A stretch of 64,000 nt of DNA. Source: Microbacteriaceae bacterium VKM Ac-2854. Its GTDB lineage: Bacteria > Actinomycetota > Actinomycetes > Actinomycetales > Microbacteriaceae. The stretch lies in assembly GCA_013205085.1 (NCBI GenBank), contig JABMLH010000010.1, forward strand, positions 1 through 64,000, read 5' to 3'. Both the position numbers and the translations under genes were made by a program. Positions 8,281 to 37,513 of this stretch are shown here, one piece after another. Position 1 is the stretch's first letter, and the number at the start of each line of letters is the position of its first letter. The notes below the pieces were generated by a model. The model ran no database searches and was not told the DNA's origin. It saw only the letters and a program-made list of their open reading frames with translations.

Positions 8281-8310
8281 CCCACCCCGCCCCGCCCACC
8301 CCGATCCTCC

Positions 8311-8377
8311 GCGAAATTTCGCGAGATTCGACCCGGCGGACGAGATCGGCCGCCGCGGCAGCCGATCTCGTCCGCCG
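8311..8377. repeat. CGCGAAATTTCGCG element, left half plus hairpin
   Basis: Starts 31 bp after the metalloprotease stop. The palindromic end (GCGAAATTTCGC, 8311-8322, then GAGATTCG) is followed by a 17-bp perfect stem (8334-8350 with 8361-8377) around a 10-nt loop containing CCGCGG. The right-hand palindromic end found in other copies is absent; the convergent gene's stop begins at 8401. Member of a family with copies at 18290, 24871 and 29282. Confidence 0.85.
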
Positions 8378-8400
8378 CGGCCGATCTGGCGGCCGCTGCG

Positions 8401-12948: not shown

Positions 12949-12954
12949 TAGTAT
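12949..12954 (+). promoter_or_regulatory. -10 box of a leaderless promoter (glycerophosphodiesterase gene)
   Basis: TAGTAT ends 7 nt before ATG 12962. There is no ribosome-binding site between them, so the mRNA probably begins at the ATG. Confidence 0.6.
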
Positions 12955-12961
12955 CGGGCGC

Positions 12962-13981: not shown

Positions 13982-14115
13982 GAGCGTGATCAGCGGATGC
14001 TTCGGCGATGCCCGGCGAGTGCGGAGGTTGCGGAGCCGATCGGCTGGCATCATCGGATGTTCCTCGCGCGACGAGGCTCGAACGTGGCTCGACGAGGTCT
14101 GACGGAGGTGACGAC

Positions 14116-14997: not shown

Positions 14998-15023
14998 GCG
15001 CGGCCTCCTGGGCGGGTGCCGGG

Positions 15024-15129
15024 CCGCGGAAATGCAGGGTGCGCGGCGAAGATCGCGCTCTCATCCGCATGTTCCACCCTCATTTCCGTCTTGAGCCTGC
15101 ATTTCCGTCCTCGCCCTGCATTTCCGCGG
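15024..15129. repeat. Inverted repeat with nested 19-bp tandem repeats
   Basis: A 16-bp perfect inverted repeat (CCGCGGAAATGCAGGG at 15024-15039, complement at 15114-15129) encloses about 74 bp. Inside and overlapping the right arm, CATTTCCG recurs at 15081, 15100 and 15119, an exact 19-bp period. It begins 27 bp after the PAP2 stop and ends 68 bp before the pcrA promoter box, so it could be a terminator, an operator or both. Confidence 0.8.
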
Positions 15130-15197
15130 TGGCCGGATCGGGGGTGGGCGATCGAGGAGGCGGATGCGCGGTCGAATTCACTGTCGGTGGGCGCTCG

Positions 15198-15203
15198 TAC
15201 ACT
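15198..15203 (+). promoter_or_regulatory. -10 box of pcrA
   Basis: TACACT lies 10 nt before the ATG, giving a leader of about 3-4 nt. Confidence 0.5.
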
Positions 15204-15213
15204 TGAACGCGAC

Positions 15214-17664
15214 ATGACGTACCTCTTCGAAGCGGATGATCCGCGTGCCACTCCGGTGATCCTGGGCGCCGACTCCCGGCCGGATCACGACTCCGCGCAT
15301 CTCTGGGGCGCTCACCACGAGAAGCTCGTCGACGGGCTCAATCCGCAACAGCGCGAGGCCGTGGAGTACCGCGGCGAGGCGCTCCTGATCGTCGCCGGTG
15401 CCGGCTCCGGCAAGACCAGCGTGCTCACCAGGCGCATCGCGAGCCTGATCCAGAATCGGGAGGCGTGGCCGAGCCAGATCCTGGCGATCACGTTCACGAA
15501 CAAAGCCGCGAAGGAGATGCGCGAGCGCGTCGAGCGGCTGGTCGGAGCCTCGTCGGAGGGCATGTGGATCTCGACGTTCCACTCCGCGTGCGTGCGCATC
15601 CTGCGTCGCGAGGCCGAGAGCTTCGGCTTCACCTCGTCGTTCACGATCTACGACTCGGGCGATCAGCGTGCGCTGCTGAAGCGGATCGTCAAGGAGCTCG
15701 AGGCCGACACCTTCGGCATCACCGTCTCGAGCGCCTCCGCGAAGATCTCCAAGCTGAAGAACGAGCTGGCGGATGTGGAGTCGTACGCCCGCACGGCGAA
15801 CTTCGACGACCCGAACGAGGCGATGTTCCTGCAGGTGTTCCGGCGCTACACCCAGGCGCTGAATCAGGCGAACGCCTTCGATTTCGACGACCTGATCGCG
15901 CAGACGGTCTACCTGTTCCGCGCGTTCCCCGCGGTGGCCGCGAAGTACAAGCGGCGGTTCCGGCACGTGCTGGTCGATGAGTACCAGGACACGAACGCGG
16001 CGCAGTACGCGCTGATCCACGAGCTCACCCGCGGTGTCTCCCCGGCGGTGCAGGCCGAGGCGCGTTTCGATTCGCCGTACCGGGGTCCGCTGCTGCCCGA
16101 CGGCTCGATTCCTGGCGCCTCCCTCACCGTGGTGGGCGACTCCGATCAGTCCATCTATGCGTTCCGCGGTGCCGACATCCGCAACATCGTCGAGTTCGAG
16201 CGCGACTTCCCGGGCTGCAAGGTGGTGCTGCTGGAGCAGAACTACCGCTCGACCCAGAACATCCTCTCGGCCGCGAACGCCGTGATCTCGAACAACTTCG
16301 ACCGCCGGGCGAAGAACCTCTGGTCGGCCAGCGGCGCCGGCGAGAAGATCATCGGCTACACCGGGTACTCGGGGCACGACGAGGCGCAGTTCGTGGTCGA
16401 CGAGATCGCGGCGCTGCATCGCGCGGGCACCGGCTACAACGACATCGCCGTGTTCTACCGCACCAACGCGCAGACCCGAGCGCTGGAGGAGATCTTCATC
16501 CGCTCGGCGCTGCCGTACCGGATCCTGGGCGGCACCAAGTTCTACGAGCGGGCCGAGATCAAGGATGCGCTGGCGTACCTGATCACGGTGGCGAACGCCG
16601 CGGATGTGCTCGCGCTGCGCCGGATCATGAACACGCCCAAGCGCGGCATCGGCCCGGCCACCGAGACGCAGCTGCAGTCGTTCGCCGACACCAACGGCCT
16701 CACCCTGCGCGAGTCGATGCGCAACGCCGGATCGCTGGGGCTGGGGCCCAAGGTGACCGCCGCGATCCTGCAGCTCGCGGCGCTGCTCGACGAGTGCGCG
16801 GCGATGTTCGATCCCGAGCGCCCGGAGGGGCCGGCGAAGGTGCACGAGGTGCTCACCGCGTTGCTCACCAAGAGCGGCTACCTCGACATGCTGCGCGCGA
16901 GCCGCGACCCGCAGGACGAGGCGCGCGCGGAGAACGTGGAGGAGCTCGTCGCGGTGACGAAGGAGTTCACCCGCAACAACCCCGACGGCGGCCTGGTCGA
17001 CTTCCTCACCGAGGTGTCCCTGGTCGCCGCGGCCGACGACCTGGATGACGCCTCCGGCACGGTCTCGCTGATGACGCTGCACACCGCGAAGGGCCTGGAG
17101 TACGACGCCGTGTTCCTCACCGGCATCGAGGAGGATCTGCTGCCGCACCGGATCTCGGCGAACGAGCCGGGCGGCCCGGCGGAGGAGCGCCGGCTGTTCT
17201 ACGTGGGCATCACCCGCGCGCGCAAGCGGCTGTACCTCTCGCTCGCGATGACCAGGGCGCAGTACGGCGAGACCTCGGTGGCGATGCCGAGCCGGTTCCT
17301 GCAGGAGATCCCGGGCGAGCTGATCGAGTGGCGGCAGTCACCGGGAGCCGCGACGTCGCGCGGCGGCACGCAGCCCCGCGCCCTGAACGCCAACCGCAAC
17401 CGCTCCCGCGCGAACGACGATTTCCGCTCCGCGCTGGCCGCCGCGCCGAAGAAGGCGGAGTTCCCGAACCGGATCACGGGAATGGTGCGCGACAACGGCG
17501 ACCTCGAACTGCTGGCCGGCGATCGCATCCGGCACACCGACTTCGGTGATGGCCGCGTCACCGCGGTGACGGGCGAGGGCACCAAGCGCGTGGCGCACGT
17601 GACGTTCGAGCGGGTGGGGGCGAAGAAGCTGCTGATCAAGGTCGCGCCGATCGAGAAGCTCTGA
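15214..17664 (+). CDS. pcrA: ATP-dependent DNA helicase UvrD/PcrA
   Basis: A superfamily 1A 3'-5' helicase used in nucleotide-excision and mismatch-type repair and in replication restart. Product of 816 residues: Q-motif LNPQQREAV (42-50), Walker A GAGSGKT (62-68), TFTNKAA, DEYQDTN (motif II), VVGDSDQSIYAFRGA (III), LEQNYRST (IV), VSLMTLHTAKGLEYDAVF (V) and FYVGITRARKRLYL (VI). An unstructured Arg/Asn/Ala-rich stretch leads to a C-terminal Tudor-like domain (GDRIRHTDFGDGRVTAV), which in PcrA binds RNA polymerase. About 40 extra N-terminal residues precede the helicase core. ATG 15214 follows a -10 box closely. The PAP2 gene at 17667 begins 2 bp after its stop. Confidence 0.96.
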   Translation: MTYLFEADDPRATPVILGADSRPDHDSAHLWGAHHEKLVDGLNPQQREAVEYRGEALLIVAGAGSGKTSVLTRRIASLIQNREAWPSQILAITFTNKAAKEMRERVERLVGASSEGMWISTFHSACVRILRREAESFGFTSSFTIYDSGDQRALLKRIVKELEADTFGITVSSASAKISKLKNELADVESYARTANFDDPNEAMFLQVFRRYTQALNQANAFDFDDLIAQTVYLFRAFPAVAAKYKRRFRHVLVDEYQDTNAAQYALIHELTRGVSPAVQAEARFDSPYRGPLLPDGSIPGASLTVVGDSDQSIYAFRGADIRNIVEFERDFPGCKVVLLEQNYRSTQNILSAANAVISNNFDRRAKNLWSASGAGEKIIGYTGYSGHDEAQFVVDEIAALHRAGTGYNDIAVFYRTNAQTRALEEIFIRSALPYRILGGTKFYERAEIKDALAYLITVANAADVLALRRIMNTPKRGIGPATETQLQSFADTNGLTLRESMRNAGSLGLGPKVTAAILQLAALLDECAAMFDPERPEGPAKVHEVLTALLTKSGYLDMLRASRDPQDEARAENVEELVAVTKEFTRNNPDGGLVDFLTEVSLVAAADDLDDASGTVSLMTLHTAKGLEYDAVFLTGIEEDLLPHRISANEPGGPAEERRLFYVGITRARKRLYLSLAMTRAQYGETSVAMPSRFLQEIPGELIEWRQSPGAATSRGGTQPRALNANRNRSRANDDFRSALAAAPKKAEFPNRITGMVRDNGDLELLAGDRIRHTDFGDGRVTAVTGEGTKRVAHVTFERVGAKKLLIKVAPIEKL

Positions 17665-17666
17665 CG

Positions 17667-18260
17667 ATGCCGACGGGGGTGGATCGCGTCGCCCGCGTGG
17701 CCACGGAGTTGTTCTCGCCGCCGGTGCTGGCGCTGGTGATGCCGTTCGTGATCGCGGTGCAGGTGACGGATCCGCCACTCGCCGGGCTCGGCTGGGGTGC
17801 GCTCTGCGTGCTGTTCTGCTGCGTGATCCCGTACGCGGCGCTGCGCATCCTGATGCGGATCGGCCGCGTCACCGGGAGCCATCACGTGCCGGATCGGCGA
17901 CAGCGGACCTTGCCGATGCTGATCGCATTGGCGTCGCTGATCGTGGGCAACGTGGCTCTTGCGCTGCTCGGCGCGCCGACCGAGGTGATCGTCTTCAGCC
18001 TGATCACGATCGTGGCGCTCGCTCTGATCGGCGTGATCAACCTCGCGTGGAAGATCTCGGGCCACGCATCGATCGTGGCGATCAGCGCCGCGATCCTGCT
18101 GATCGTCTCGGGGCCGTGGACGCTGTGGCTCTCGATCCCTGTCGCCCTCGTTACGGGCTGGTCGCGCCTCCGGCTGTCGGCGCACACCCCGGCGCAGGTG
18201 CTGGCGGGCTTCGCGCTCGGCTCCGCGGTGACCGCGGCGGTGTGGTCGGCGCTCGGCTGA
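17667..18260 (+). CDS. PAP2-type integral membrane phosphatase
   Basis: Product of 197 residues with five or six helices. It contains the pieces of the PAP2 signature in reduced form: HVPDRRQRT, SGHAS, and GWSRLRLSAHTPAQVLAG with catalytic Arg and His. Small proteins of this kind are annotated as phosphatidic-acid-phosphatase-related in actinobacteria. It starts 2 bp after pcrA and is surely translated from the same mRNA. There is no obvious functional link to DNA repair. The HTPAQ end (Gln in place of Asp) is a common variant. Confidence 0.75.
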   Translation: MPTGVDRVARVATELFSPPVLALVMPFVIAVQVTDPPLAGLGWGALCVLFCCVIPYAALRILMRIGRVTGSHHVPDRRQRTLPMLIALASLIVGNVALALLGAPTEVIVFSLITIVALALIGVINLAWKISGHASIVAISAAILLIVSGPWTLWLSIPVALVTGWSRLRLSAHTPAQVLAGFALGSAVTAAVWSALG

Positions 18261-18289
18261 GACTCCGGATCTCCCGATCCCGGCGCTCC

Positions 18290-18408
18290 GCGAAATTTCG
18301 CGAGATTCGCTGTTACGGCGAACCGCGATCGAGATCGGGTGTCGCGGACCAGATGCCACGCCGCGGCGTTCGATCTCGCCCGCAGCCGCGAATCTCGCGA
18401 AATTTCGC
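18290..18408. repeat. CGCGAAATTTCGCG element, full length with 21-bp terminal inverted repeats
   Basis: Perfect 21-bp ends at 18290-18310 and 18388-18408, each containing the GCGAAATTTCGC palindrome. The interior is degenerate: only CGAGATCG (18329-18336) and CGATCTCG (18371-18378) of the central stem remain. It lies 29 bp after one stop and 35 bp before the convergent gene's stop. Confidence 0.9.
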
Positions 18409-18443
18409 GAGATAGGGCGGGCGGGTGGGCGGGCGCGGGCGGG

Positions 18444-18809
18444 TCAGAGCACGTCGCTGCCCGCGTAGGTGCCGGCCTGCATCAGGGCGTCGGCGATGGC
18501 GATGGCGGCCTCGTCGAAGGCGTTCGCGGCGGGGAGGAGCGAGCCGGCGCCGGTGGCGGTGAGAGCGGGGTGGCGCAGCTGCGCCACGACGCGGTCGTCG
18601 TGCTGGGTGAAGATCACCTCGAAGGAGACGGGCGCGAACTGCTCGCCCGCCCAACTGTCCGGGCTCGCGGCCTCCGCGCTGCGCCGCGCGGCGACCGTGT
18701 GGTCCGCGACGCGCTCGAGGTCGAAGCCCTCGCGCTCGAGCGCTTCCAGCACCAGGCGTTCAGCGCTCGCGGCGTCGCCCTCGATCCGGATGTCGAATCC
18801 ATTCGTCAT
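18444..18809 (-). CDS. Conserved hypothetical protein
   Basis: A soluble, acidic protein of 121 residues with no signal peptide or helix. It starts MTNGFDIRIEGDAASAERLV and has a repeated Ala/Asp/Glu-rich helical character (ANAFDEAAIAIADALMQ at the end). I do not recognise a family. Strong ribosome-binding site AAGGGGG. Its gene lies directly downstream of the acyl-CoA ligase on the same strand (52 bp), so the two may be co-transcribed. Function unknown. Confidence 0.7.
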   Translation of the reverse strand: MTNGFDIRIEGDAASAERLVLEALEREGFDLERVADHTVAARRSAEAASPDSWAGEQFAPVSFEVIFTQHDDRVVAQLRHPALTATGAGSLLPAANAFDEAAIAIADALMQAGTYAGSDVL

Positions 18810-18825
18810 GTCGTGCCCCCTTCGT

Positions 18826-18870
18826 CGTGGATCTACTCGTCGTGGATCAACTCGCCGTGGATCAACTCGT
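18826..18870. repeat. Three tandem 15-bp repeats over a stop codon
   Basis: CGTGGATCWACTCGY is repeated at 18826, 18841 and 18856 with one or two differences. The last copy contains the stop codon (18862-18864) of the acyl-CoA ligase. Fifteen bases is five codons, so slippage here would not shift a frame but would move the stop. Confidence 0.85.
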
Positions 18871-20445
18871 GAACTGTGCGACCAGCTCCCGTTTCAACAC
18901 CTTGCCGCTCGGCCCGAGCGGCAACCCGGTGACGAACTCGATCCTGCGCGGGTACTTGTACGCGGCGAGGTGCTCGTTCGCGTAGGCGATCAGCTCCTCG
19001 GCGCTCGCGGATCCGCCCAGCACCACGGCGGCGATGATCTCCTGGCCGTGCGCGTCATCCGGCACCCCGAACACGGCGGCGTTCGCGACGGCGGGATGCC
19101 CGATCAGCACCTCTTCGACCTCGCGCGGATACACGTTGTAGCCGTTGCGGATGATCATGTCCTTGGTGCGGTCGACGATGCGGATGTAGTCCTCCGCGTC
19201 CTTCGTGCCGAGGTCGCCGGTGCGGAACCAGCCGTCGACCATCGCCTCGGCGGTGGCGTCGGGACGCCCGAGGTAGCCCTTCATCAGGTTGTGGCCGCGG
19301 ATGACGACCTCGCCGAGCGTGCCGCGCGGCAGCAGCTCGATCTGATCGACGAGTTCGGGCCGGGCGATCTCGACCTCGACGCCCCAGATCGGTGTGCCGA
19401 CCGTGCCGGGGCGTGGGGTGCGCCCGACATGATTGAAGGTGGCGACCGGGGAGGTCTCGGTGAGCCCGTAGCCCTCGTAGATCGGGACGCCGTACAGCTG
19501 CTCGAAGCGTTCCAACACGGCCAGAGGCAGCGCGGCTCCGCCCGAGACGGCGTAGCGCAGCGGCGGGCGCTCCTCCCGTTCTGCGGCGGCGGCCAGCAGC
19601 GCGACGTACATCGTGGGCACGCCCTCGAAGATCGTGCAGTCGTTGCGGATCATCGCCTCCAGGGCGGCCGCTCCGTCGAACCTGGGCACCAGCACCACCG
19701 TCGCCCCGACGCGGAAGGCGGTGTTCATCGCGCAGACCTGGCCGAAGGTGTGGAACAGCGGCAGGGCGCCGAGCACGACGTCTCCCGGTCGCATGTCGAA
19801 GGTGTTCATCAGCAGGATGTTCGACTGCTCGACGATCGCCAGGTGGCTGCCCTCCGCGCCCTTCGGTCGACCCGTTGTGCCGGAGGTGTACAGGATCGTC
19901 GCGGTGTCGAGCGGGTCGCACGGGCGGTAGGTGTCGATGGGCTGAGCATCCGCGGCGCGATCCTCCAGGCGGGAGAACGGCGACTCGGTGCCGTCCGGCA
20001 CCATCAGGCTGAAGACCTCCACGCCGGCGAGGTCAGCGCCCTGAGCGCCTTCGGCGAGCAGGGGCGCCGAACACAGCAGCAGCTTCGCGCCCGAATCCTG
20101 CAGCACGTACGCGATCTCGTCGTGCTTGAGCAGCGCGTGCACCGGCACCACGATCGCACCGAGCGAGAGCACCGCGAAGTAGCACCGCGGGAAGTCGGGC
20201 ACGTTGGGGATGAGGACGGCGACGCGATCGCCCGGACCGACCCCCGCCTCGCGCAGCGCTCCGGCGTAGCCGCGGGTCTGCTGCCAGAGGGTGGCGTAGT
20301 CGATGGCGCTCTCACCGACGATGAGCGCGGTCGCCTCCGGTGTTCGTGCGGCGCTCTCGGCGAGGATCGCAGCGACGGAGACGGTGCCGAATCCGCTCGC
20401 GGTGGCGACCGGCGCGGCGGCCGATCGGGGTGCGGTGATGCTCAT
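18862..20445 (-). CDS. AMP-forming acyl-CoA synthetase (fatty-acid-CoA ligase type)
   Basis: Activates a carboxylic acid with ATP and CoA through an acyl-adenylate. ANL-superfamily protein of 527 residues: P-loop-like YTSGTTGRPKGAEGS, EGYGLTETSP, GWFRTGDLG, and the C-terminal hinge and catalytic Lys in LPLGPSGKVLKREL. Most like long-chain-fatty-acid-CoA ligases; the chain length cannot be read from the sequence. ATG 20445 has a TGGAG ribosome-binding site. It may be followed in the same transcript by the small protein at 18444. Confidence 0.9.
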   Translation of the reverse strand: MSITAPRSAAAPVATASGFGTVSVAAILAESAARTPEATALIVGESAIDYATLWQQTRGYAGALREAGVGPGDRVAVLIPNVPDFPRCYFAVLSLGAIVVPVHALLKHDEIAYVLQDSGAKLLLCSAPLLAEGAQGADLAGVEVFSLMVPDGTESPFSRLEDRAADAQPIDTYRPCDPLDTATILYTSGTTGRPKGAEGSHLAIVEQSNILLMNTFDMRPGDVVLGALPLFHTFGQVCAMNTAFRVGATVVLVPRFDGAAALEAMIRNDCTIFEGVPTMYVALLAAAAEREERPPLRYAVSGGAALPLAVLERFEQLYGVPIYEGYGLTETSPVATFNHVGRTPRPGTVGTPIWGVEVEIARPELVDQIELLPRGTLGEVVIRGHNLMKGYLGRPDATAEAMVDGWFRTGDLGTKDAEDYIRIVDRTKDMIIRNGYNVYPREVEEVLIGHPAVANAAVFGVPDDAHGQEIIAAVVLGGSASAEELIAYANEHLAAYKYPRRIEFVTGLPLGPSGKVLKRELVAQFTS

Positions 20446-20528
20446 GGTGCTCCAGTCGACGGTGACTGCAGGGCGGCGCGCCCCGGGGAGGTCACGCTAC
20501 GCCCCTGGTGGGCGGTGCGGCAAGGGAT

Positions 20529-20813
20529 TCAGCGCGGTCGCGGCGGATCCTCGGTCAGCAGGATGTTGGTACGCGCGGGCGCCCGCGGCTCCAGATGCCG
20601 AACGACGAAGGCGCCCGCGACGAAGGCGATGCCGAGGCCGAACAGCAGCCGGTTCACCGCCGGCAGCGTCGCGAACAGGTAGTCGAGCATCGACGAACCG
20701 GCGACCTGCGCCTGGTAGAGCAGATTCGGGTAGACGATGCCGAACACGATCGATGCGACGATCGAACCGACACCCCACCAGAGCATCGCTCGAGCCGACA
20801 GTTTCGGAACCAT
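20529..20813 (-). CDS. Small two-helix membrane protein
   Basis: Product of 94 residues with two membrane segments (about 9-27 and 52-70), an external loop containing YPNLLYQAQVAGSSMLDY, and a Pro/Arg-rich tail. Strong ribosome-binding site AAGGGGG. I do not recognise the family; small proteins of this type are common and uncharacterised in Microbacteriaceae. Its position ahead of the acyl-CoA ligase on the same strand (83 bp) allows co-transcription. Confidence 0.7.
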   Translation of the reverse strand: MVPKLSARAMLWWGVGSIVASIVFGIVYPNLLYQAQVAGSSMLDYLFATLPAVNRLLFGLGIAFVAGAFVVRHLEPRAPARTNILLTEDPPRPR

Positions 20814-20882
20814 GGCGTTCCCCCTTCGCTCCCTCCAGCCTGGCGCGCGCCGGGTCGCACGGCTACGACTCCCAGCCGGATG

Positions 20883-21731
20883 TCAGGCGTGCCGGACCAC
20901 GACGAGCGGCCCCGCCATCGTGAGCGCCATGCTGTGGCTGACCGAACCCAGCAGCAGTCTCAGGAACGCGCCGCGGCCGTGGCTGCCGACCACAAGCAGG
21001 CTCGCCGTGCGCGAGACGGCGGCCAGCGCCTCCACGGTGGCGCCCCGCACGAGTCGACGCTCGACGATCAGGTCGGGGTGGCGCTCGCCGAGTCCGGTCA
21101 GCGACTCCGCGAAGACCAGCCGCTCATCCGCCTCGATCGCATCGATCGTCACCTTCTCGACCGGCACGGTGTCGGCCCAGGCACCCGGCAGCTGCCAGGC
21201 GTGCACGGCCAGCAGCGGCTCGCCGACGCGATCGGCCTCTGCGGCGGCGAATCGGATCGCCTCCAACGAGGCGGGGGAGCCGTCGACGCCCACGGCGACG
21301 CCGTGCCGACCCTCGTCGGCACCGGGCGGGATCAGGGCGACGGCGGAGTGCGAAGCCGCCGCCACGCGCACCGCGACCGGCGCGGTCACGGCGCCGCCGA
21401 TCCGGCTCAGGTGGTGCGCTCCGAGCACGAGCAGGCTGCCGGCCGGTGCGGCCTCGCTGAGCCGGTAGACCGGCTCGCCGTAGAGGATCCGCCCGGCGAC
21501 CGCGACCTCGGGGTGGGTGTCGCGGGCGCGCTGCGTGGCCTGTTCGAGCACCTGCCCCGCCACCTCGCGCACGGCGGTCTCGTCCATCAGCCCGACGCCG
21601 GTCCAGAGATCCTCGACGACGGTCACCAGCTCGACCGGGCGATGCCGGTCGGCCGCCCGTTCGAGCGCCCAGTCCAGGGCCACCAGGCTCTGGTCCGATC
21701 CGTCGACTCCGACCACGATCGTGTTCGTCAT
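20883..21731 (-). CDS. Universal stress protein, tandem UspA domains
   Basis: Two USP domains in 282 residues. Domain 1 (1-140) begins TIVVGVDGSDQS; domain 2 (145-282) begins VAVGVDGSPASLEA and keeps the ATP-binding motif VVGSHGRGAFLRLLLGSVS, so the second domain at least should bind ATP. Domain 1 has GAHHLSRIGG in that place, a weaker match. Such proteins aid survival in stress or hypoxia, by mechanisms that differ between species. Strong GAGGAGG ribosome-binding site at ATG 21731. Confidence 0.92.
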   Translation of the reverse strand: MTNTIVVGVDGSDQSLVALDWALERAADRHRPVELVTVVEDLWTGVGLMDETAVREVAGQVLEQATQRARDTHPEVAVAGRILYGEPVYRLSEAAPAGSLLVLGAHHLSRIGGAVTAPVAVRVAAASHSAVALIPPGADEGRHGVAVGVDGSPASLEAIRFAAAEADRVGEPLLAVHAWQLPGAWADTVPVEKVTIDAIEADERLVFAESLTGLGERHPDLIVERRLVRGATVEALAAVSRTASLLVVGSHGRGAFLRLLLGSVSHSMALTMAGPLVVVRHA

Positions 21732-21816
21732 GATGCCGCCTCCTCGTTGAAGCCACTACCGCTCATCCTGGCCTCGGGCGCGGCGGAGCGGACCGCGTCT
21801 CAGCAAACGCGCGGAA

Positions 21817-22584
21817 TCAGGAGCTGCGCCGCAGCCGCCGGAGGTAGAGCGTGCACGGCAGGGTGCGGATCCGCTGCGGCAGGACGCGGTAGAGCGCGAA
21901 CGTCGCCCCCATGGCGCGGTCGAAGCGGCGTTGCTGGCGGGCATCCCACCGGAAGCCGAAGGGCTCGCGCAGTTCGGGCGGCAGCAGCCCGGCGGTGACC
22001 AGGCGGATGTACGGCATCAGCGCGCGGACCCACCACGGCGATTCGCGCGCCGCGAGCAGGTCGCGCGCGACGCGGCGGGCGTCCGGGGTGACGCGGAGCG
22101 CGGCGAGCGAGCCGGCCCAGTACCGGTCGAAGGCGTCGCGGGTCTGCGGCCAGAGCTCGCCCGGCATCTGCAAGGAGGTGCCGACCTGCGCCTGGCGACG
22201 CTGGATCTCGTCGGCGTCCGCGTTGGAGAGGGCACCGAACGCGCCCTCGTAGAGTTCGAGCATCGACTGGTGGATGGTCGCGGCGACCCACCTCTGCAGC
22301 TCGGGGTCGAAGGCGCTGTAACCCGGACCGCGGACCGGCGCGTGCGCGCGGTTGACGATCCGCTGCACGGCCCGGCGGTCCGCATCCGTGCCGTACTCCA
22401 GCGCGTACAGGTACGTGAGCGTGCCGTGCAGGCGGCCGAGCGCTCGGTGGGCGAAGTCGGAGTGCTCGGCCACGCCGGCTCCCACAGCGGGATGCGCGAT
22501 CTGCAGCAGGATCGCGCGGCCACCGGCGACCAGGAAGATCGACTCGCGGCCGATGTCGCGGATGTCCCGGGCGGATGCGTGCAC
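21817..22584 (-). CDS. Oxygenase MpaB-like / DUF2236 protein
   Basis: Product of 255 residues. The family hallmarks are visible: GRESIFLVAGGRAILLQIAHPAVGAG near the N-terminus with the heme-ligand-type His, VAEHSDF, R..RT..Y...ALEYG, and ATIHQSMLELYE. DUF2236 proteins include latex-clearing oxygenase and the mycophenolic-acid enzyme MpaB, b-type heme proteins; most bacterial members are uncharacterised. GTG 22584 is chosen because a TACGCT box ends exactly 6 nt upstream, and the residues before it (longer frame to 22722) show no conservation-like pattern. Confidence 0.82.
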   Translation of the reverse strand: MHASARDIRDIGRESIFLVAGGRAILLQIAHPAVGAGVAEHSDFAHRALGRLHGTLTYLYALEYGTDADRRAVQRIVNRAHAPVRGPGYSAFDPELQRWVAATIHQSMLELYEGAFGALSNADADEIQRRQAQVGTSLQMPGELWPQTRDAFDRYWAGSLAALRVTPDARRVARDLLAARESPWWVRALMPYIRLVTAGLLPPELREPFGFRWDARQQRRFDRAMGATFALYRVLPQRIRTLPCTLYLRRLRRSS

Positions 22585-22590
22585 CCGGTA

Positions 22591-22596
22591 AGCGTA
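22591..22596 (-). promoter_or_regulatory. -10 box of a leaderless promoter (DUF2236 gene)
   Basis: TACGCT on the minus strand, 6 nt before GTG 22584. Confidence 0.55.
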
Positions 22597-22643
22597 GGCG
22601 GGTGGGACCCCCGGAGGCGTCCGGGTTTCTCGGGCGCGGAGAG

Positions 22644-22717
22644 TAGAGTTGACGCGGCCCGAGACGCGAGGTGCGTGTCCTCTTCCGCCTGCTGTCCCGA
22701 GCCGTTCATCGATGAAC
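22644..22717 (+). promoter_or_regulatory. sucCD promoter region with a 14-bp palindrome
   Basis: TAGAGT at 22644-22649 is a likely -10 box, giving a leader of about 100 nt before sucC. Within the leader, GTTCATCGATGAAC (22704-22717) is a perfect palindrome, a candidate regulator site or hairpin. No regulator is encoded nearby. Confidence 0.45.
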
Positions 22718-22754
22718 ACCAATAAGCGCGCGTGGCGCGGAATGGGAAAACAGC

Positions 22755-23924
22755 GTGGATCTATTCGAATACCAGGCCCGTGATCTGTTCGAGTCGTACG
22801 GAGTCCCCGTGCTGCCCGGCATCGTCGCCGATACTCCGGAGGAGGCTCGCGCCGCCGCCGAGAAGCTGGGCGGCGTGACGGTCGTCAAGGCTCAGGTGAA
22901 GATCGGCGGCCGCGGCAAGGCGGGCGGCGTGAAGGTCGCCAAGGACGCGGACGCTGCGGAAGAGGCGGCGAAGGCGATCCTCGGTCTCGACATCAAGGGC
23001 CACGTCGTCAAGCGCCTGATGATTGCGGGTGGCGCCCGGATCGCGCAGGAGTTCTACTTCTCCGTGCTGCTGGACCGGGCGAACCGCTCCTACCTCTCGC
23101 TCACCTCCTACGAGGGCGGCATGGAGATCGAGCAGCTCGCCGTCGAGCGCCCCGAGGCGCTGGCGCGCGTCGAGGTCGTTCCCGGCGAGGGCATCGACCT
23201 GGCCAAGGCGACCGAGATCGCGATCGCCGCGAAGTTCCCCGAGGAGCTCGTGCCCAAGGTCGCCCCGGTGATCGTGAAGCTGTACGAGGTCTACAAGGGC
23301 GAGGACGCGACGCTGGTCGAGGTCAACCCGCTGGTGCTCACCGAGGAGGGCGACATCGTCGCGCTCGACGGCAAGGTCTCGCTCGACGAGAACGCCGGCT
23401 TCCGGCACCCGAACCACGAGGCGCTCGAGGACAAGTCCGCGGCCGACCCGCTGGAGGCCAAGGCCAAGGAGAACGACCTCAACTACGTGAAGCTCGACGG
23501 CGAGGTCGGCATCATCGGCAACGGCGCGGGCCTCGTGATGTCGACCCTCGACGTGGTCGCCTACGCGGGGGAGAAGCACCAGGGCGTCAAGCCGGCGAAC
23601 TTCCTCGACATCGGTGGCGGAGCCTCCGCGACCGTGATGGCGAACGGACTCGACGTCATCCTCAACGACGAGCAGGTCAAGAGCGTGTTCGTGAACGTCT
23701 TCGGCGGCATCACCGCCTGCGACGCCGTCGCCAACGGCATCCTGCAGGCGCTGGAGATCCTCGGCGACACGGCGACCAAGCCGCTGGTCGTCCGCCTCGA
23801 CGGCAACAAGGTCGAAGAGGGCCGCGCGATCCTCGAGGCCGCCGCGAACCCGCTGATCACTCTGGCCGCCACCATGGACGAGGGCGCCGACAAGGCCGCC
23901 GAGCTCGCCGCCGCCGCTGCGTAA
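22755..23924 (+). CDS. sucC: Succinyl-CoA ligase (ADP-forming), beta subunit
   Basis: With SucD it converts succinyl-CoA to succinate while forming ATP in the TCA cycle. 389 residues, normal length. ATP-grasp domain with [19 protein letters not shown] at the start, [17 protein letters not shown] and [12 protein letters not shown]; the C-terminal CoA-ligase domain has [18 protein letters not shown] and VFGGIT.CD. GTG 22755 is preceded by GGGA. SucD starts 20 bp after the stop, so the pair is one operon. Confidence 0.97.
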
Positions 23925-23944
23925 CGAAGGACTGTAGAACAACA

Positions 23945-24847
23945 ATGTCGATCTTCCTCAACAAGGATTCCAAGGTCATCGTCCAGGGCATCACCGGCGG
24001 CGAGGGCACCAAGCACACCGCGCTGATGCTGAAGGCGGGCACCAACATCGTCGGCGGCGTGAACGCGCGCAAGGCCGGCACCACCGTTTCGCACACCGCG
24101 GCCGACGGCTCCAGCATCGAGCTGCCCGTCTTCGGAACGGTCGCCGAGGCCATCGCGGCCACCGGCGCCGACGTCTCCATCGCCTTCGTGCCGCCGGCCT
24201 TCTCGAAGGACGCCGTCTTCGAGGCCATCGACGCCGAGATCGGCCTGCTCGTGGTGATCACCGAGGGCATTCCGGTGCAGGACAGCGCCGAGTTCTGGGC
24301 GCACGCGCAGTCGAAGGGCAACAAGACCCGCATCATCGGGCCGAACTGCCCGGGCATCATCACGCCGGGCGAGTCGCTCGTGGGCATCACCCCGGCGAAC
24401 ATCACCGGCAAGGGCCCGATCGGCCTCGTCTCGAAGTCGGGCACCCTGACCTACCAGATGATGTACGAGCTGCGCGACCTGGGCTTCTCCACCGCCATCG
24501 GCATCGGCGGCGACCCGATCATCGGCACCACGCACATCGACGCCCTCGCCGCGTTCGAGGCCGACCCCGAGACCAAGGCGATCGTGATGATCGGTGAGAT
24601 CGGCGGCGACGCCGAGGAGCGCGCGGCCGACTTCATCAAGGCCAACGTCACCAAGCCGGTCGTCGGCTACGTGGCCGGCTTCACGGCTCCCGAGGGCAAG
24701 ACCATGGGCCACGCCGGCGCCATCGTCTCGGGCTCCGCGGGCACCGCCCAGGCCAAGAAGGAGGCCCTCGAGGCCGCCGGCGTGAAGGTCGGCAAGACCC
24801 CCTCCGAGACCGCCGCACTGCTGCGCGAGGTGTACGCGAGCCTCTAG
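23945..24847 (+). CDS. sucD: Succinyl-CoA ligase (ADP-forming), alpha subunit
   Basis: 300 residues. CoA-binding Rossmann domain ([19 protein letters not shown], replacing the more usual GxTGxQG), [19 protein letters not shown], and the phosphorylated His256 in [10 protein letters not shown]. Partner of SucC directly upstream. ATG 23945 with an AAGGA somewhat far (about 13 nt) upstream, so translation may be partly coupled to sucC. The operon ends at the repeat element that begins 23 bp after the stop. Confidence 0.97.
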
Positions 24848-24870
24848 CCACTGGGCTCGTCTCGCGGGCT

Positions 24871-24996
24871 TCGCGAAATTTCGCGAGATTCGATGATGCG
24901 GACGAGATCGGCTGCCGCGGCGGCCGATCTCGTCCGCATCGGCGTATCTGGCGCGCGGGAAGCTGCCGAGACAGCGAATCTCGCGAAATTTCGCGA
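24871..24996. repeat. CGCGAAATTTCGCG element, complete reference copy
   Basis: Perfect 22-bp terminal inverted repeats (24871-24892, 24975-24996), each built on CGCGAAATTTCGCG, flank a perfect 18-bp hairpin (24895-24912 with 24923-24940; stem GGACGAGATCGGC) whose 10-nt loop contains CCGCGG. The right interior (24941-24974) is unstructured. It begins 23 bp after sucD and ends 27 bp before the next gene. Confidence 0.92.
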
Positions 24997-25011
24997 GGTG
25001 ACGCGGGCGGA

Positions 25012-25017
25012 TAGGGT
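25012..25017 (+). promoter_or_regulatory. -10 box of a leaderless promoter (LLM oxidoreductase)
   Basis: TAGGGT lies 6 nt before GTG 25024, just outside the repeat element. The element's right end would fall in the -35 region, so it may influence this promoter. Confidence 0.55.
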
Positions 25018-25023
25018 CGAGGG

Positions 25024-26061
25024 GTGCCCGCCGAACTCGGATTCCTGACCTTCGTTCCGTATCCAGCCGGGGCGGACTCCGCCGCCCGGAGTCTCCAGGA
25101 CGGCATCGAGCTGTTCGAGTTCGCAGAGCGACTCGGCTACGACACCGGCTGGGTGCGGGTGCGGCACTTCGAGACCTTCCTCTCGTCGCCGATGACCTTC
25201 TTCGCCGCCGTGTCCCAGCGCACCACGCGCATCCACCTCGGCACCGCGGTCATCGGCGCGCGCTACGAGTCACCCATCCGACTCGCGGAGGATGCGGCCA
25301 CCGTCGACCTGCTCAGCGGCGGGCGGCTCGAACTGGGACTGAGCGGTGGCTTCGCGCACCTCTCCGGTGTCTTCGACGGCGTCTTCGGCACGGCCGAGCA
25401 GGAGTTCTCCGCGGAGGCGCAGGAGCGCATCGCGCGCACCCGCGAGGCGCTCTCCGGCGCGACTCTCGGCATCGCGACCTCGGCGCTGATGTCCGTGCCG
25501 GTCGGCTCGCCGCTGGTGCTGCGCCCGCAGAGCCCGGGGCTCACCGAGCGGGTCTGGTACGGGCCGGGCACCGAGGCGTCCGCCGCGCGGGCGGGCACGT
25601 TGGGCATGGACATCCAAGTGTCGACGCTGAACACGGAGGAGACCGGCCTGTCCTTCGAGGAGCAGCAGCTGGCGCAGATCCGCGCGTACCGGGCGGCCTT
25701 CGCCGCGGCGCATCCGCAGCGCACTCCCCGCGTCGCCGCCGGGCGGATCGTGCTGCCCCTGCTCACTGCAGAGGACGAGGCGGCGCACCGCGGGTTCATC
25801 GACGGCTACAACGCACGGATGCTGCCCGACGGGCGGCCTCGCACGGCGGACCGCTCGATCGTGGCGGCGCCGATGCGGTTCAGCCCTCTCTACGTCGGAG
25901 AGCCCGAGCGCATCGTCGACGAACTCCTGGCGGACGTGGCGCTCGCCGAGGCGGATTCGTTCACGATCACGCTGCCGGCGGTCGGCGGTGTCGCCTCGCA
26001 TCGCCGCATTCTGGACGCGGTGGCCGACAAGATCGCACCGGCGCTGGGCTGGCACGGCTGA
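25024..26061 (+). CDS. Luciferase-like (LLM-class) flavin-dependent oxidoreductase
   Basis: A 345-residue bacterial-luciferase-fold monooxygenase, probably FMN- or F420-dependent. It has GFLTFVPYP near the start, TTRIHLGTAVIGARYESPIRLAEDAATVDLLSGGRLELGLSGG (the conserved LLM core), VWYGPGTEAS and the Arg/Pro-rich region before the C-terminal TLPAVGG. It resembles the CE1758/KPN-type putative luciferase-like monooxygenase subgroup, but the substrate is unknown. Leaderless GTG start. Convergent with ogt; a long hairpin begins 6 bp after its stop. Confidence 0.85.
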   Translation: MPAELGFLTFVPYPAGADSAARSLQDGIELFEFAERLGYDTGWVRVRHFETFLSSPMTFFAAVSQRTTRIHLGTAVIGARYESPIRLAEDAATVDLLSGGRLELGLSGGFAHLSGVFDGVFGTAEQEFSAEAQERIARTREALSGATLGIATSALMSVPVGSPLVLRPQSPGLTERVWYGPGTEASAARAGTLGMDIQVSTLNTEETGLSFEEQQLAQIRAYRAAFAAAHPQRTPRVAAGRIVLPLLTAEDEAAHRGFIDGYNARMLPDGRPRTADRSIVAAPMRFSPLYVGEPERIVDELLADVALAEADSFTITLPAVGGVASHRRILDAVADKIAPALGWHG

Positions 26062-26066
26062 GGTTG

Positions 26067-26184
26067 TGACCGAGGGCTGCTCGAAAGAGGAGCCACCCTT
26101 CGGCCTCCGCGGAACATCCGCGGAATTGCGCGGATTCGGTGGCGGCTGGGAGCGCTGCGATTGCTTTCGAGCAGCCCTCAGTCA
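26067..26184. repeat. Inverted repeat between convergent genes
   Basis: Two 21-nt arms (26067-26087, 26164-26184; CGAGGGCTGCTCGAAAG part) match at 20 positions and enclose 76 bp with repeated TCCGCGG motifs. It fills the whole gap between two stop codons. Confidence 0.85.
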
Positions 26185-26194
26185 CGCCTCCGCC

Positions 26195-26692
26195 TCAGAA
26201 CAGCCGCTCCGCCTTCGCCGTCGCGGGCTCCTCCAACTCCAGAAGGAACTTCTTACGCTCCAGCCCGCCCGCGAAGCCGGTGAGCGAGCCGTCGGCGCCG
26301 AGCACACGGTGGCACGGCACGATGATCGAGATCGGATTGTGTCCCACGGCCTGACCGACGCGCTGCGCCAGCGCCGGGTTGCCGAGTTCTCGCGCGATGA
26401 CCCCGTAGGAGGTCGTCGACCCGAAGGGGATCGCGCGCAGGATCGCCCAGACCTGCTGCGAGAAGGGATCACCCCGCGGAGCGAGCGGCAGATCGAAGTC
26501 GGTGCGCTCGCCGGCGAAGTACTCCGCAAGCTGCCGTGCGGTCTGGTCGAAGACCGCGTCCCCGCCGTCGTCTCCGATCGAATCGGCAGCGGGCGGGTAG
26601 CGATGACCAGGGAAATACAGCCCGGTCAACGCGGCGTCCTCGGCGACGAGCAGCAGCTCGCCCACCGGCGTCGGAATGCGGGTGTGGGTCAC
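26195..26692 (-). CDS. ogt: Methylated-DNA--[protein]-cysteine S-methyltransferase
   Basis: Suicide repair protein removing O6-alkyl groups from guanine. 165 residues. An N-terminal ribonuclease-like domain (to about 75) is followed by the DNA-binding domain: VWAILRAIPFGSTTSYGVIA, the RVGQAVGHNP helix and the active site IIVPCHRVLG with Cys127. GTG 26692 is leaderless-type (TAGAGT 6 nt upstream). A second, Cys-lacking relative is at 47166. Confidence 0.94.
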   Translation of the reverse strand: MTHTRIPTPVGELLLVAEDAALTGLYFPGHRYPPAADSIGDDGGDAVFDQTARQLAEYFAGERTDFDLPLAPRGDPFSQQVWAILRAIPFGSTTSYGVIARELGNPALAQRVGQAVGHNPISIIVPCHRVLGADGSLTGFAGGLERKKFLLELEEPATAKAERLF

Positions 26693-26698
26693 CCCGAC

Positions 26699-26704
26699 AC
26701 TCTA
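26699..26704 (-). promoter_or_regulatory. -10 box of a leaderless promoter (ogt)
   Basis: TAGAGT on the minus strand, 6 nt before GTG 26692, and inside the last bases upstream of the neighbouring stop codon region. Confidence 0.55.
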
Positions 26705-26708
26705 GAAC

Positions 26709-27956
26709 TCAGGATGCGACGGAGGTGGTGCTGCGGTCGCGACGTCCGATAACCGCCAGGATCGGCCGCTCCAGCGTCAGCAGCAGCAACCACCACAGTC
26801 CCGGCCCCGGCACGAGCAGCGCGAGGATCAGCGCCAGGATCAACAGGCCGAATGGCATCAGGGCGAAGCGGATCCTGACCGGTCCGACGTCCGGATGCTT
26901 CAGGCCCGGGCGCAGGATCAGCAGCAGGTCGATCAGCGCGAGCGCGCCGCTGATCACGACCATGGCACCCACGTAGAGCGCGATCGCCGCTCGCTCGTGG
27001 CCGATCTGCGCGACCACGCTCGTCGCGAACGGGAAGAACGCGATGCCGCAGAGCCAGAGCAGGTTGATCCAGACCAGCGTGGGGGAGTGGTCGCCGACCA
27101 GCTCGAAGACGCGGTGATGCGGCACCCAGAAGACGGCGATGATCGCGAACGACAGGGCGAAGGCCAGCACCGTGCCGCTGTTCTGAGCGAAGAGGTCGCC
27201 CAGGCCGGTGTCCGCGATCTCGGGCGCCAGTTCGACCAGCGGCAGCACCATGATCGTGATCGCGATCGCCACGGTCGCATCGGAGAAGTTCACCAGGCGG
27301 TCCAGGCCCCGCTCGTTGTGCGGCGCCGGCGCACGCGGCGGAAGCTCGCGGTGACGCAGCCGGGCCCACACGCGCTCCAGCGGGCTCGAGAGGAACAGCA
27401 GCAGCAACCAGCCCATGTTCACGGCGGGGACGGTCACCGCGAGTACGAGCGCGGCGATCAGGATGAACACCGTCACGAACGACGGCGTCGGCCGCGGCGC
27501 GTCGGCGCGCAGCAGCTCGGGATCGCGTAGGAGCAGGACATCCATCGCGAGGGTCGAGGCCGAGGCGACGACCATCACGCCGATGTACAGGGCGTAGACC
27601 CCTCGGTCCCGATCCGCGTAGGCGAGCAGATTCGCGGCGAACGGGATGGCGACGATGCTCAGCAGCCAGAGGAAGTTCAGCCACACCAGCGCCGGCCGGT
27701 AGTCGGTGACCCACTCGAACACCGCGATGTGCACCATCCACAGCCGACCGATCACCGCGAAGCTGATCAGGAACGCGAGGAGGGTGCCCCAGTTCGCTTC
27801 GAGCAGTTCTCCGAGCGGATGCGTGTCGAGTTCGGCGGTGACGTCGACCAGAGGCAGCACCAGGAAGGTGATCGCGATCGCGACGGCCGCATCGGTGAAG
27901 TTGACCAGGCGGTCCAGGCCCCGTGCGGTCGTTCGGCGGGAGGGCTCGATCGGCAC
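26709..27956 (-). CDS. Tandem TMEM175-like (DUF1211) channel protein
   Basis: Product of 415 residues with two copies of a six-helix TMEM175 unit. Unit 1 (about 8-200) begins RGLDRLVNFTDAAVAIAIT, unit 2 (about 215-400) begins RGLDRLVNFSDATVAIAIT; both have LPLV.., a central FxIxxxFWxxHHxxFE-like helix (RLWMVHIAVFE, VFWVPHHRVFE) and LVW.NLLWLL. TMEM175 units form potassium or proton-selective channels, normally one unit per chain in bacteria and two in animals. Unit 1 has FTD where the family has FSD. GTG 27956 is placed by a TATCGT box 6 nt upstream. The stop is 4 bp from the ogt promoter. Confidence 0.85.
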   Translation of the reverse strand: MPIEPSRRTTARGLDRLVNFTDAAVAIAITFLVLPLVDVTAELDTHPLGELLEANWGTLLAFLISFAVIGRLWMVHIAVFEWVTDYRPALVWLNFLWLLSIVAIPFAANLLAYADRDRGVYALYIGVMVVASASTLAMDVLLLRDPELLRADAPRPTPSFVTVFILIAALVLAVTVPAVNMGWLLLLFLSSPLERVWARLRHRELPPRAPAPHNERGLDRLVNFSDATVAIAITIMVLPLVELAPEIADTGLGDLFAQNSGTVLAFALSFAIIAVFWVPHHRVFELVGDHSPTLVWINLLWLCGIAFFPFATSVVAQIGHERAAIALYVGAMVVISGALALIDLLLILRPGLKHPDVGPVRIRFALMPFGLLILALILALLVPGPGLWWLLLLTLERPILAVIGRRDRSTTSVAS

Positions 27957-27962
27957 GACTCG

Positions 27963-27968
27963 ACGATA
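27963..27968 (-). promoter_or_regulatory. -10 box of a leaderless promoter (TMEM175-like gene)
   Basis: TATCGT on the minus strand, 6 nt before GTG 27956. The gap to the divergent gene at 28039 is only 82 bp. Confidence 0.55.
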
Positions 27969-28038
27969 GCGGGCACTTCGCCGGTGTGCGGGGTTTCTCC
28001 AGGGAGGTCGCGGGGCCGCCGGTAGGCTCATCAGGCCC

Positions 28039-29241
28039 ATGAACCGGATCACCGTCGCCCTCCTCGCCGCCTTCGACGCCGCGATCGCCGCCCTGATCGG
28101 GATCGTCATCCCGCTGGTCCCGCTGACCGTCCTCTGGGCGGTGCAGTACGACACCGCGGTCGACTGGGTGCTCTTCTGGCGAGTGGCGGCCGACGCGTGG
28201 CTGCTCGGCAATGGAGCGGATCTCACCGCGACACTCGATCCGGCGCTCGCGCTGAGTCTGGGCCTCACCGCGACCGGCACGAGCTTCCTCGTGTCGATCG
28301 CGCCGCTCGCGTTCGCGCTGCTGGCGACCCTGCTGGGCGTGCGCATCGGGCGTCGCGCCGCCGCGAGCCCGTATCGCGTGATCGCCGTTGCGACCGCGGT
28401 GCTGATCTACCTCGGCATCGCCACGTTGGTCACGTTCAGTGCGACCGACGCCGCGGCGAGCATCCCGTTGTGGCAGGGCATGCTCTGGCCGACGCTGGTC
28501 TTCGCGCTCGGCATCGCGATCGGCTCGGGCATCGCCTCCGCGCGGGAGCAGGACGCGCTGGCGGATGCCGTCGGTGCCCTGCTGGATCGGATCCCCGCGG
28601 TCGGGCGGGTGGCGGCGGATGCGGCGCTGCGCGGCGGCGCGCTGGCTGCGGCGGGAGTCGTCGGCGTCGCGGGCGTTCTGGTCGCGGTGCTGCTGATCGG
28701 CAACTACGCGGGCGTTGTGGCGATGTACGAGAGTCTGGACGGCGGGATCGTGGGCGGCATCGCCTTGACGATCGGCCAGCTGGCGTTCATCCCGAACCTC
28801 GTCCTCTGGGCGGCGAGCTGGCTGATCGGCCCCGGCTTCGCGATCGGAACCGGCTCTTCCGTCGCCCCGGCGGGGACGCTGCTCGGGCCGGTGCCGGCCC
28901 TGCCGGTGTTCGCGGCGCTGCCGCAGGGTGAGCTCGCGTTCGGCTTCGTCGGCGTGCTGGTGCCGTTGATCGCGGGGTTCGTGGCGGCGTGGGCGATCCG
29001 TCCGCGGCTGATGGATCGCCTCGACGGTGCGTCGCTGCTGCTGTGGGGGAGCGTCACCGCGGTCGGCATCGGCGTCGTCGGCGGTGCGCTGCTGGGCCTG
29101 CTCGCCTGGTTCTCCGGCGGCGCCGCGGGCCCCGGCCGCCTCGCCGAGGTCGGCCCCGACGGTCTGCTCGTCGGCGCGATCGCCGCCGCCGAACTCACCG
29201 TCGCGGCCCTGCTCGGCCTCGCCTCCGGCCGCTCCCGCTGA
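28039..29241 (+). CDS. DUF6350 family membrane protein
   Basis: Product of 400 residues with about nine to ten helices, rich in Ala, Gly, Val and Leu and with no soluble domain. The family is known in actinobacteria for sitting just upstream of purN, as here; its function is unknown. A TAGGCT box at 28023-28028 would give a leader of only 3-4 nt, and no ribosome-binding site is needed. An element copy separates it from purN, which has its own promoter, so co-transcription is doubtful. Confidence 0.8.
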   Translation: MNRITVALLAAFDAAIAALIGIVIPLVPLTVLWAVQYDTAVDWVLFWRVAADAWLLGNGADLTATLDPALALSLGLTATGTSFLVSIAPLAFALLATLLGVRIGRRAAASPYRVIAVATAVLIYLGIATLVTFSATDAAASIPLWQGMLWPTLVFALGIAIGSGIASAREQDALADAVGALLDRIPAVGRVAADAALRGGALAAAGVVGVAGVLVAVLLIGNYAGVVAMYESLDGGIVGGIALTIGQLAFIPNLVLWAASWLIGPGFAIGTGSSVAPAGTLLGPVPALPVFAALPQGELAFGFVGVLVPLIAGFVAAWAIRPRLMDRLDGASLLLWGSVTAVGIGVVGGALLGLLAWFSGGAAGPGRLAEVGPDGLLVGAIAAAELTVAALLGLASGRSR

Positions 29242-29281
29242 ATCCCGGCGGTGTCCGGCGCGGCGCGCTTGAGATGTGGGG

Positions 29282-29353
29282 TGACGGACGAGGTGCTCCG
29301 CCGCGGCGGGGCACCTCGTCCGTCAAAGCAAATCTCGCGAAATTTCGCGAGAT
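29282..29353. repeat. CGCGAAATTTCGCG element, hairpin plus right half
   Basis: A 15-bp perfect stem (29282-29296 with 29311-29325; TGACGGACGAGGTGC) has a 14-nt loop with CCGCGG. It is followed by the right end at 29332-29353, which is a perfect 22-bp palindrome built on CGCGAAATTTCGCG. The left palindromic end is missing. It lies 40 bp after the DUF6350 stop. Confidence 0.9.
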
Positions 29354-29387: not shown

Positions 29388-29981
29388 GTGCTGAAACTGG
29401 TCGTGCTCATTTCCGGCGGGGGATCGAACCTTCGGGCGTTGCTGGAGGCGGCCGCCGACGCGCAGTATCCGGCGCGGGTGGTGGCGGTCGGCAGCGACAA
29501 CGATGCGGACGGCTTGGCCCACGCCGAGCGCTTCGACATCCCGACGTTCACGGTGCCGCCGACGTCCTTCGCGACGCGCGAGGCGTGGGGCGAGGAGCTG
29601 CTGCGCCAGATCGACGAATGGCAGCCCGACCTCGTCGTCTGCGCCGGCTTCATGCGCATCCTGCCGGGCAACGTCGTCTCGGCGCTCAGCCCGAACATCA
29701 TCAACACGCACCCCGCGCTGCTGCCGCTGTATCCGGGGGCGCATGCCGTCCGCGACGCGCTCGCGGCCGGCGCGACCGAGACCGGAGTGACCGTGCACGT
29801 GATCGACGCCGGCGTCGACACCGGACCCGTCATCACCCAGCAGAGCCTGACCGTGCACGAGGGCGAGACCGAGTCCGCCCTGCATGAGCGCATCAAGACC
29901 ATCGAGCGGGGCCTGCTGGTGCAGACCGTGCTCGACATCGCCAACGGAACCGTCGACCTCGAGGAACTCGCCCGCCCATGA
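29388..29981 (+). CDS. purN: Phosphoribosylglycinamide formyltransferase
   Basis: Third step of purine synthesis: transfers a formyl group from 10-formyl-THF to GAR. 197 residues. [15 protein letters not shown] binds the phosphate, and the catalytic Asn-His-Asp set is in [11 protein letters not shown] and [11 protein letters not shown]. The last codons overlap purH by 4 bp (ATGA), so the two are translationally coupled. The purU gene at 60419 uses the same formyl-THF pool. Confidence 0.96.
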
Positions 29982-37435: not shown

Positions 37436-37437
37436 CC

Positions 37438-37508: not shown

Positions 37509-37513
37509 GGGCG

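Follow-up and report, generated by a model that had tools for sequence, protein, structure and literature searches.

MITEs of DDE-transposase insertion sequences are short and non-coding, and they have terminal inverted repeats and a target-site duplication. REPINs, or REP doublets, are moved by RAYT according to the available portion of Bertels and Rainey (2011, PMC3116915), and a mechanism for REP and REPIN dispersal has been proposed where RAYT is present. The GTAG- and CGTC-tagged REPs are 20-40 bp long with the tag at one end, as described in the accessible sections of PMC3733652, a paper in whose main text the word Actinobacteria does not occur. For the genus Rathayibacter itself, the accessible passages of Davis et al. 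(2018, PMC6113626) report a palindromic repeat of ~75 nt in PacBio and 454 genomes, with 15-50 copies in most genomes, 99 in R. festucae and 19 in R. toxicus. REP, REPIN and MITE families are a known kind of element. Among the records listed, our literature search gave no description of the Rathayibacter family analysed here, apart from possibly the PMC6113626 repeat, and a search with the inner 12-mer of the core of the family analysed here gave, among the matches listed, no title on such repeats.

Copies and anatomy of the element in VKM Ac-2854

The window analysed here is a stretch of 64,000 nucleotides from Microbacteriaceae bacterium VKM Ac-2854, and the whole genome of this Rathayibacter strain (G000; 4.75 Mb in 18 contigs) was searched as well. 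All four intergenic copies of a dispersed palindromic element that the initial annotation had reported in the window were found (Table 1), with cores within about one base of the places it had given them, where those mark a core. The 14-mer core, CGCGAAATTTCGCG, is present at six exact sites in the window, and sites with at most two mismatches number 7 against 0.55 expected, a count that none of 100 shuffles reached. It had been predicted beforehand that the core would be commoner than chance genome-wide, and this is so: the genome holds 81 exact sites, as opposed to none for the reversed-pattern control. These 81 sites form 59 clusters, of which 38 have a single core, 20 have two and one has three. 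At C14:119929-120428 a composite places three cores in ~500 bp, with GCACCTCGTCCG-like motifs repeated inside, as if by tandem duplication.

Table 1. Copies of the element in the window, with their exact cores and neighbouring genes
Feature	Position	Strand	Layout	Exact core sites	Score (bits)	Neighbouring genes
Single-ended unit	8310..8395	+	core, AGATTCG, CCGCGG-centred hairpin, end near ATCTGG	8310-8323	87.1	convergent: 5863-8280 (+, S-layer homology domain); 8401-8691 (-)
Two-ended copy	18289..18409	-	B end 18289-18309, hairpin unit 18318-18409	18289-18302; 18396-18409	78.5	convergent: 17667-18260 (+); 18444-18809 (-)
Two-ended copy, subject of the initial annotation	24872..24995	+	core, hairpin to ~24957, B end 24975-24995	24872-24885; 24982-24995	93.5	sucD 23945-24847 (+); luciferase-like monooxygenase gene 25024-26061 (+)
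Single-ended unit	29264..29349	-	core at right, hairpin to left	29336-29349	87.9	DUF6350 gene 28039-29241 (+); purN 29388-29981 (+)

We aligned 59 hairpin-bearing units from this genome without gaps and with an exact core required. Units with altered cores stand outside this alignment, C1:530206 was left out for its longer centre, and four units with weaker hairpin scores were added by hand. Mismatch-tolerant searches revealed few altered-core units (C12:462910, C17:116605 and C11:441305). The unit consists, in order, of the core, AGATTCG, a variable pentamer, GCGGACGAG-T, a spacer, GCCGCGGC, a spacer, A-CTCGTCCGC, a spacer and ATCTCG, and its consensus ends are CGCGAAATTTCGCGAGATTCG and ATCTCG. 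Conservation fades past ~86 bases, which is the approximate length of the unit in bp; the two-ended form measures ~124 bp. The unit is nearly symmetrical around its CCGCGG centre, and the spacer holds symmetrical conserved blocks (CGAGAT, CGGACGAG, GCCGCGGC, CTCGTCCG and ATCTCG).

The initial annotation had described palindromic terminal repeats of 21-22 bp and a perfect central stem. The repeats are 21 bp long (CGCGAAATTTCGCGAGATTCG), but only their first 14 bp are palindromic, and the stem is nearly perfect, with 18 of 19 inner pairs formed in the copies at 8310, 24872 and 29336 but 14 of 19 in the copy at 18289. Its observation that the ends stay constant while the interiors drift extends to the whole set of 59 exact-core units, in which near-invariant ends stand against a median interior identity of 70%. 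It had also taken some copies to have lost one end. Both one-ended and two-ended copies are seen, but the single-ended ones do not resemble decayed two-ended ones. A second, inverted end is present in 22 of the 59 units with 0-1 mismatches of 21 and starts 99-150 bases from the first, and in the other 37 units the far end is absent (8-13 mismatches of 21). No far end has 2-7 mismatches, which indicates that the one-ended and two-ended forms are discrete; the outer-flank control gave 8-12 mismatches, except for one flank with 1. Mean identity was 0.714 for single-ended and 0.729 for two-ended units (permutation P = 0.30), and conservation was about equal.

Position behind genes and properties of the hairpin

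The expectation that copies lie between rather than inside genes was likewise borne out, as none of the 59 clusters falls within a called gene (genes being called by an ad hoc codon-bias script), although one cluster, C18:91392, extends 14 bp into the end of a called gene. Neighbouring genes are convergent at 23 clusters, tandem at 33 and divergent at 3, compared with 29, 105 and 59 for the element-free intergenic regions of at least 60 bp in the same stretches (chi-square P = 5e-6), a background drawn from stretches chosen for carrying copies. In the window each unit starts behind the left-hand gene, as had been noted, but at 22-29 bp from the stop codon and not at 23-40 bp. Pyrimidines predominate (0.66-0.70) in the flank outside the A-end core, regardless of the direction of the neighbouring gene; the pyrimidine fraction is 0.55 behind stop codons generally, 0.77 outside the R. 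iranicus cores and 0.56-0.59 in B-end flanks.

This location fits a terminator family, one of the identities that the initial annotation had suggested. Under this explanation the element would be a bidirectional terminator cassette, spread or kept for ending convergent and tandem transcription without a U-tract, which we regard as unlikely. Its appeal lies in the closeness of facing gene 3' ends, the nearest of which is at a median of 23.5 bp and within 50 bp in 46 of the 56 non-divergent clusters; in 15 of the 23 convergent clusters neither side exceeds 40 bp. The stems are also very stable, and behind sucD, where the element is present in VKM Ac-2854, R. iranicus and a third Rathayibacter genome (G002), an ordinary GC-rich hairpin is seen by eye in the other 12, element-free genomes. 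Nevertheless, orientation between tandem genes is little biased (19 with and 14 against), and none of the three copies in window positions 8000-27999 is among the 3 terminator-like sites that a U-tract terminator scan found there. An Rfam scan of the window gave no match at gathering score. In addition, some copies have separate hairpins beside them: such hairpins flank the C13:381507 copy on both sides and adjoin the copy behind tuf, each alike in VKM Ac-2854 and its sister genome (by eye), and a terminator-like hairpin adjoins the C1:374235 copy in VKM Ac-2854. These neighbours indicate that equating the element with the local terminator does not hold at every site.

Covariation between the stem arms bears on the same question. 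Covariation of the arms slightly exceeds that of shuffles, with a score of 0.128 against 0.114 ± 0.007 (14 of 500 as high), and swapping arms between copies lowered the number of pairs from 23.0 to 22.55 ± 0.20 of 32, with 11 of 500 swaps reaching the observed value; for cells paired in the stem, 16 of 500 shuffles were as high. This excess is small, however, and may reflect relatedness, since 15 stem pairs carry double changes and shuffles give 13.4, with 91 of 500 shuffles reaching the observed number. Any structural signal in the hairpin is small, at most marginal, and conservation is mainly of short sequence blocks. Selection on the hairpin as an RNA structure was among the readings set aside, its support being at most marginal.

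Distribution among genomes and recurrent slots

The exact 18-mer end CGCGAAATKTCGCGAGAT was present in 3 of the 398 Microbacteriaceae genomes searched, all of them Rathayibacter. A covariance model of the unit, with matches on both strands counted and at most 150 candidates per genome scored, matched at least 122 times in VKM Ac-2854, at least 63 times in R. iranicus (G001) and at least 6 times in G002. The other 12 Rathayibacter genomes had 0-2 weak matches each among the matches listed. In a sucCD tree the sister of VKM Ac-2854 is G004, which is 94.9% identical over sucCD, and R. iranicus and G002 are distant; the sister had no model match among the matches listed.

In R. iranicus the core differs slightly. 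Among 31 aligned units, 26 have the one-base variant CGCGAAATGTCGCG, which is not a perfect palindrome, 3 have CGCGAAATTTCGCG and 2 have other variants. Conserved columns largely coincide between VKM Ac-2854 and R. iranicus (information r = 0.73), and the spacers and one core base differ. Three R. iranicus copies with the T-type core of VKM Ac-2854, and not the G-type, have less regular hairpins (by eye) and are perhaps from an older wave. In a wider genome collection, 16 stretches contained the 18-mer, 3 from R. iranicus and 13 with single sites in other taxa. Three Verrucomicrobiota contigs have it in one common context, gatggatctCGCGAAATTTCGCGaatattgcctgagcaa, that is unlike the Rathayibacter unit, and a single viral contig, the sole one of its kind, carries it at 4325-4342. 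A plasmid or phage origin was considered with blastn of a 124-bp copy, which found no match in plasmids or phages.

The presence of symmetrical blocks in corresponding alignment columns of two species, with drifting spacers between them, agrees with another of the initial suggestions, a protein-binding site. The element could on this account be a binding array for a DNA-binding protein, either a nucleoid organiser or a regulator, with the 14-bp palindrome as its putative site. Sites are also denser on contigs C2 and C18 (12 of 59 clusters against 3.6 expected, P = 0.0002, for contigs picked after the counts were seen). The exact core search, however, gave no site in the sister genome or in 12 other genomes of the genus, which argues against a housekeeping system, and the usual R. 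iranicus core is imperfect as a palindrome. We consider such an array improbable.

The sister genome has a palindrome family of its own, GCGCTGTCGTTTTCACC...GGTGAAAACGACAGCGC, with 25 matches in G004, 11 in VKM Ac-2854 and none in the other 13 genomes of the genus; a copy lies at window positions 49439-49454 (GTGAAAACGACAGCGC). Comparing 268 intergenic regions of VKM Ac-2854 with one another brought out further repeat clusters, among them those around GCGAAAAGTTGCAGCCC (9), CGCGAGATGCCTCTT (9), GCGAGGGACCCC (8) and GGGGGTTGTCAC (4). Those around GCGAGGGACCCC and GGGGGTTGTCAC occur in the sister too, and most cluster regions are convergent or tandem. Three other hairpins in the window are repeated elsewhere. 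The one at 47086-47165, CGCGAGATGCC(T/A)CTT...AAGAGGCATCTCGCG, belongs to a cluster of 9 of the 268 regions and shares CGCGAGAT with the element at its ends; those at 37436-37514 (GCGAGGGACCC, a cluster of 8 regions) and 53564-53635 (GGGGGTTGTCAC...GTGACAACCCCC, 4 regions) both lie between convergent genes and are also found in G004. The sequence CCGCGGAGCTCCGCGG behind sucD in G003, suspected to be one more family, was rejected because it has two copies in one genome only.

Different species use some of the same intergenic places. Of the R. iranicus copies examined, 4 of 32 lie in intervals used in VKM Ac-2854 (0.8 expected, P = 0.009), and 7 of 43 sites of the G004 family, one site on contig C26 being excluded, lie in slots of the VKM Ac-2854 element (1.1 expected, P about 1e-4); both probabilities assume an equal target likelihood for all non-divergent intergenic regions, which is untrue. 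Three slots (C13:371288, C16:138976 and C18:92630) are occupied in VKM Ac-2854, R. iranicus and G004, in the last by its own palindrome family. The R. iranicus counterpart of C13:371288 includes an additional gene, so sharing a slot is to be understood there as sharing an intergenic interval. Behind tuf, R. iranicus has an element-free counterpart.

At the four slots common to VKM Ac-2854 and R. iranicus, the orientation is the same at two and opposite at two. Vertical inheritance is accordingly unsupported for the latter two. Ranked among all cross-species pairs, the three shared-slot pairs that were scored stand at percentiles 0.94, 0.20 and 0.53; the 31-row R. iranicus alignment is without the copy in the C16:138976 slot, and that pair lies outside the scoring. 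Given the mixed orientations and a pair similarity not systematically higher than random, at least some of the insertions that the two species have in shared slots look independent.

The 7 of 43 G004-family sites in element slots and the three slots filled in all three genomes might also arise if gene conversion made the sequences in old resident slots uniform inside each species, with sister species carrying different families at the same places, but this is a poor prospect given that most slots are unshared (36 of 43 and 28 of 32), that orientation is opposed at two of the four slots shared with R. iranicus, that the 11 matches of the G004 family in VKM Ac-2854 mean that two families coexist there, and that the interiors, with a median identity of 0.70, are not homogenised.

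Mobility and relation to known systems

A RAYT or IS200-type mobiliser was rejected, because the Y1/RAYT transposase (PF01797) had no match at E <= 0.001 in any of 15 Rathayibacter genomes and 5 of 14 control genomes were positive. As far as tested, the element lies outside the RAYT-dependent REP class. The IS91-type Y2 transposase (PF04986) likewise had no match in the 15 genomes, a result that is uninformative because the control genomes were also without a match. None of 20 two-ended copies has a target-site duplication of at least 3 bp directly at its ends, with 0.06 expected from re-paired flanks, and no transposase was found between any two ends lying up to 2 kb apart (81 sites). In one 1.1-kb pair, C1:137470-138613, facing units bracket a short operon whose ORFs, from their translations, presumably resemble ribosomal proteins; a 1.2-kb pair of ends encloses an ORF without a family match. 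No transposition event, within-species polymorphic site or mobilising gene was seen in this material.

Every rival explanation accounts for some of the observations and conflicts with others. The near-invariant ends, the drifting interior, the restriction to few species and the apparently independent copies in like places are best read as marks of a mobile repeat. We therefore favour, with a probability of roughly 0.6, a non-autonomous, REPIN-like mobile repeat that settles in 3' intergenic slots and is moved by an enzyme acting in trans. The MITE or REP-like identity in the initial annotation is thus the best supported of its suggestions, in view of the absence from the sister, the species variants and the discrete ends, although it has no target duplications and the search for RAYT in the genus came up empty. 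The mobilising enzyme would be encoded elsewhere and would recognise the blocks and the ends, which consist of the core with AGATTCG and occur singly or as two inverted copies; it would insert the element, by copying or by pasting, in 3' intergenic spacers, with the core end adjoining pyrimidine-rich sequence. The bias towards gene 3' ends would then combine tolerance with target choice.

A broader and more speculative extension, which we hold to be doubtful, is that a RAYT-independent Rathayibacter system repeatedly seeds 3' slots with several unrelated palindromic families, which would replace each other between sister species. The core and the CGAGAT/CGGACGAG array might then be the site of the mobiliser, with pyrimidine-rich targets behind genes. 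Because slots recur, it becomes possible to ask if the insertion of palindromic repeats is directed to gene 3' ends or if such repeats simply persist at these places.

Among known systems, MITEs resemble the element in that it is short and non-coding and has 21-bp terminal inverted repeats in its two-ended copies, but it lacks target-site duplications (20 copies), 37 of 59 units are one-ended, and no parent element was seen between ends up to 2 kb apart. The tagged REPs are also palindromic repeats, as the accessible sections of PMC3733652 describe them, whereas the unit here is ~86 bp long and has CGTC only inside a hairpin arm. The ~75-nt Rathayibacter repeat corresponds to it in genus, approximate size, palindromic nature and a copy number similar in magnitude to the R. 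iranicus count, a likeness by description only from the accessible passages of PMC6113626; that repeat is widespread according to the same passages, whereas 12 of the 15 genomes here had at most 2 weak model matches each among the matches listed. From REPINs the element differs in having no Y1/RAYT in the 15 genomes of the genus and no GTAG or CGTC end tag, in that its singlets are not clearly more diverged than its doublets, unlike Pseudomonas REP singlets, and in that compensatory changes, common in REPINs in the available portion of PMC3116915, are at most marginal. It nevertheless shares with REPINs, as that portion portrays them, a short, extragenic and many-copied form, invariant inverted ends around a variable, foldable spacer, and the occurrence of both single and double forms. 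A family of this REPIN-like anatomy, expanded in certain species only and with no RAYT match in the 15 genomes, offers a modest, testable instance in which a different mobiliser may be at work.
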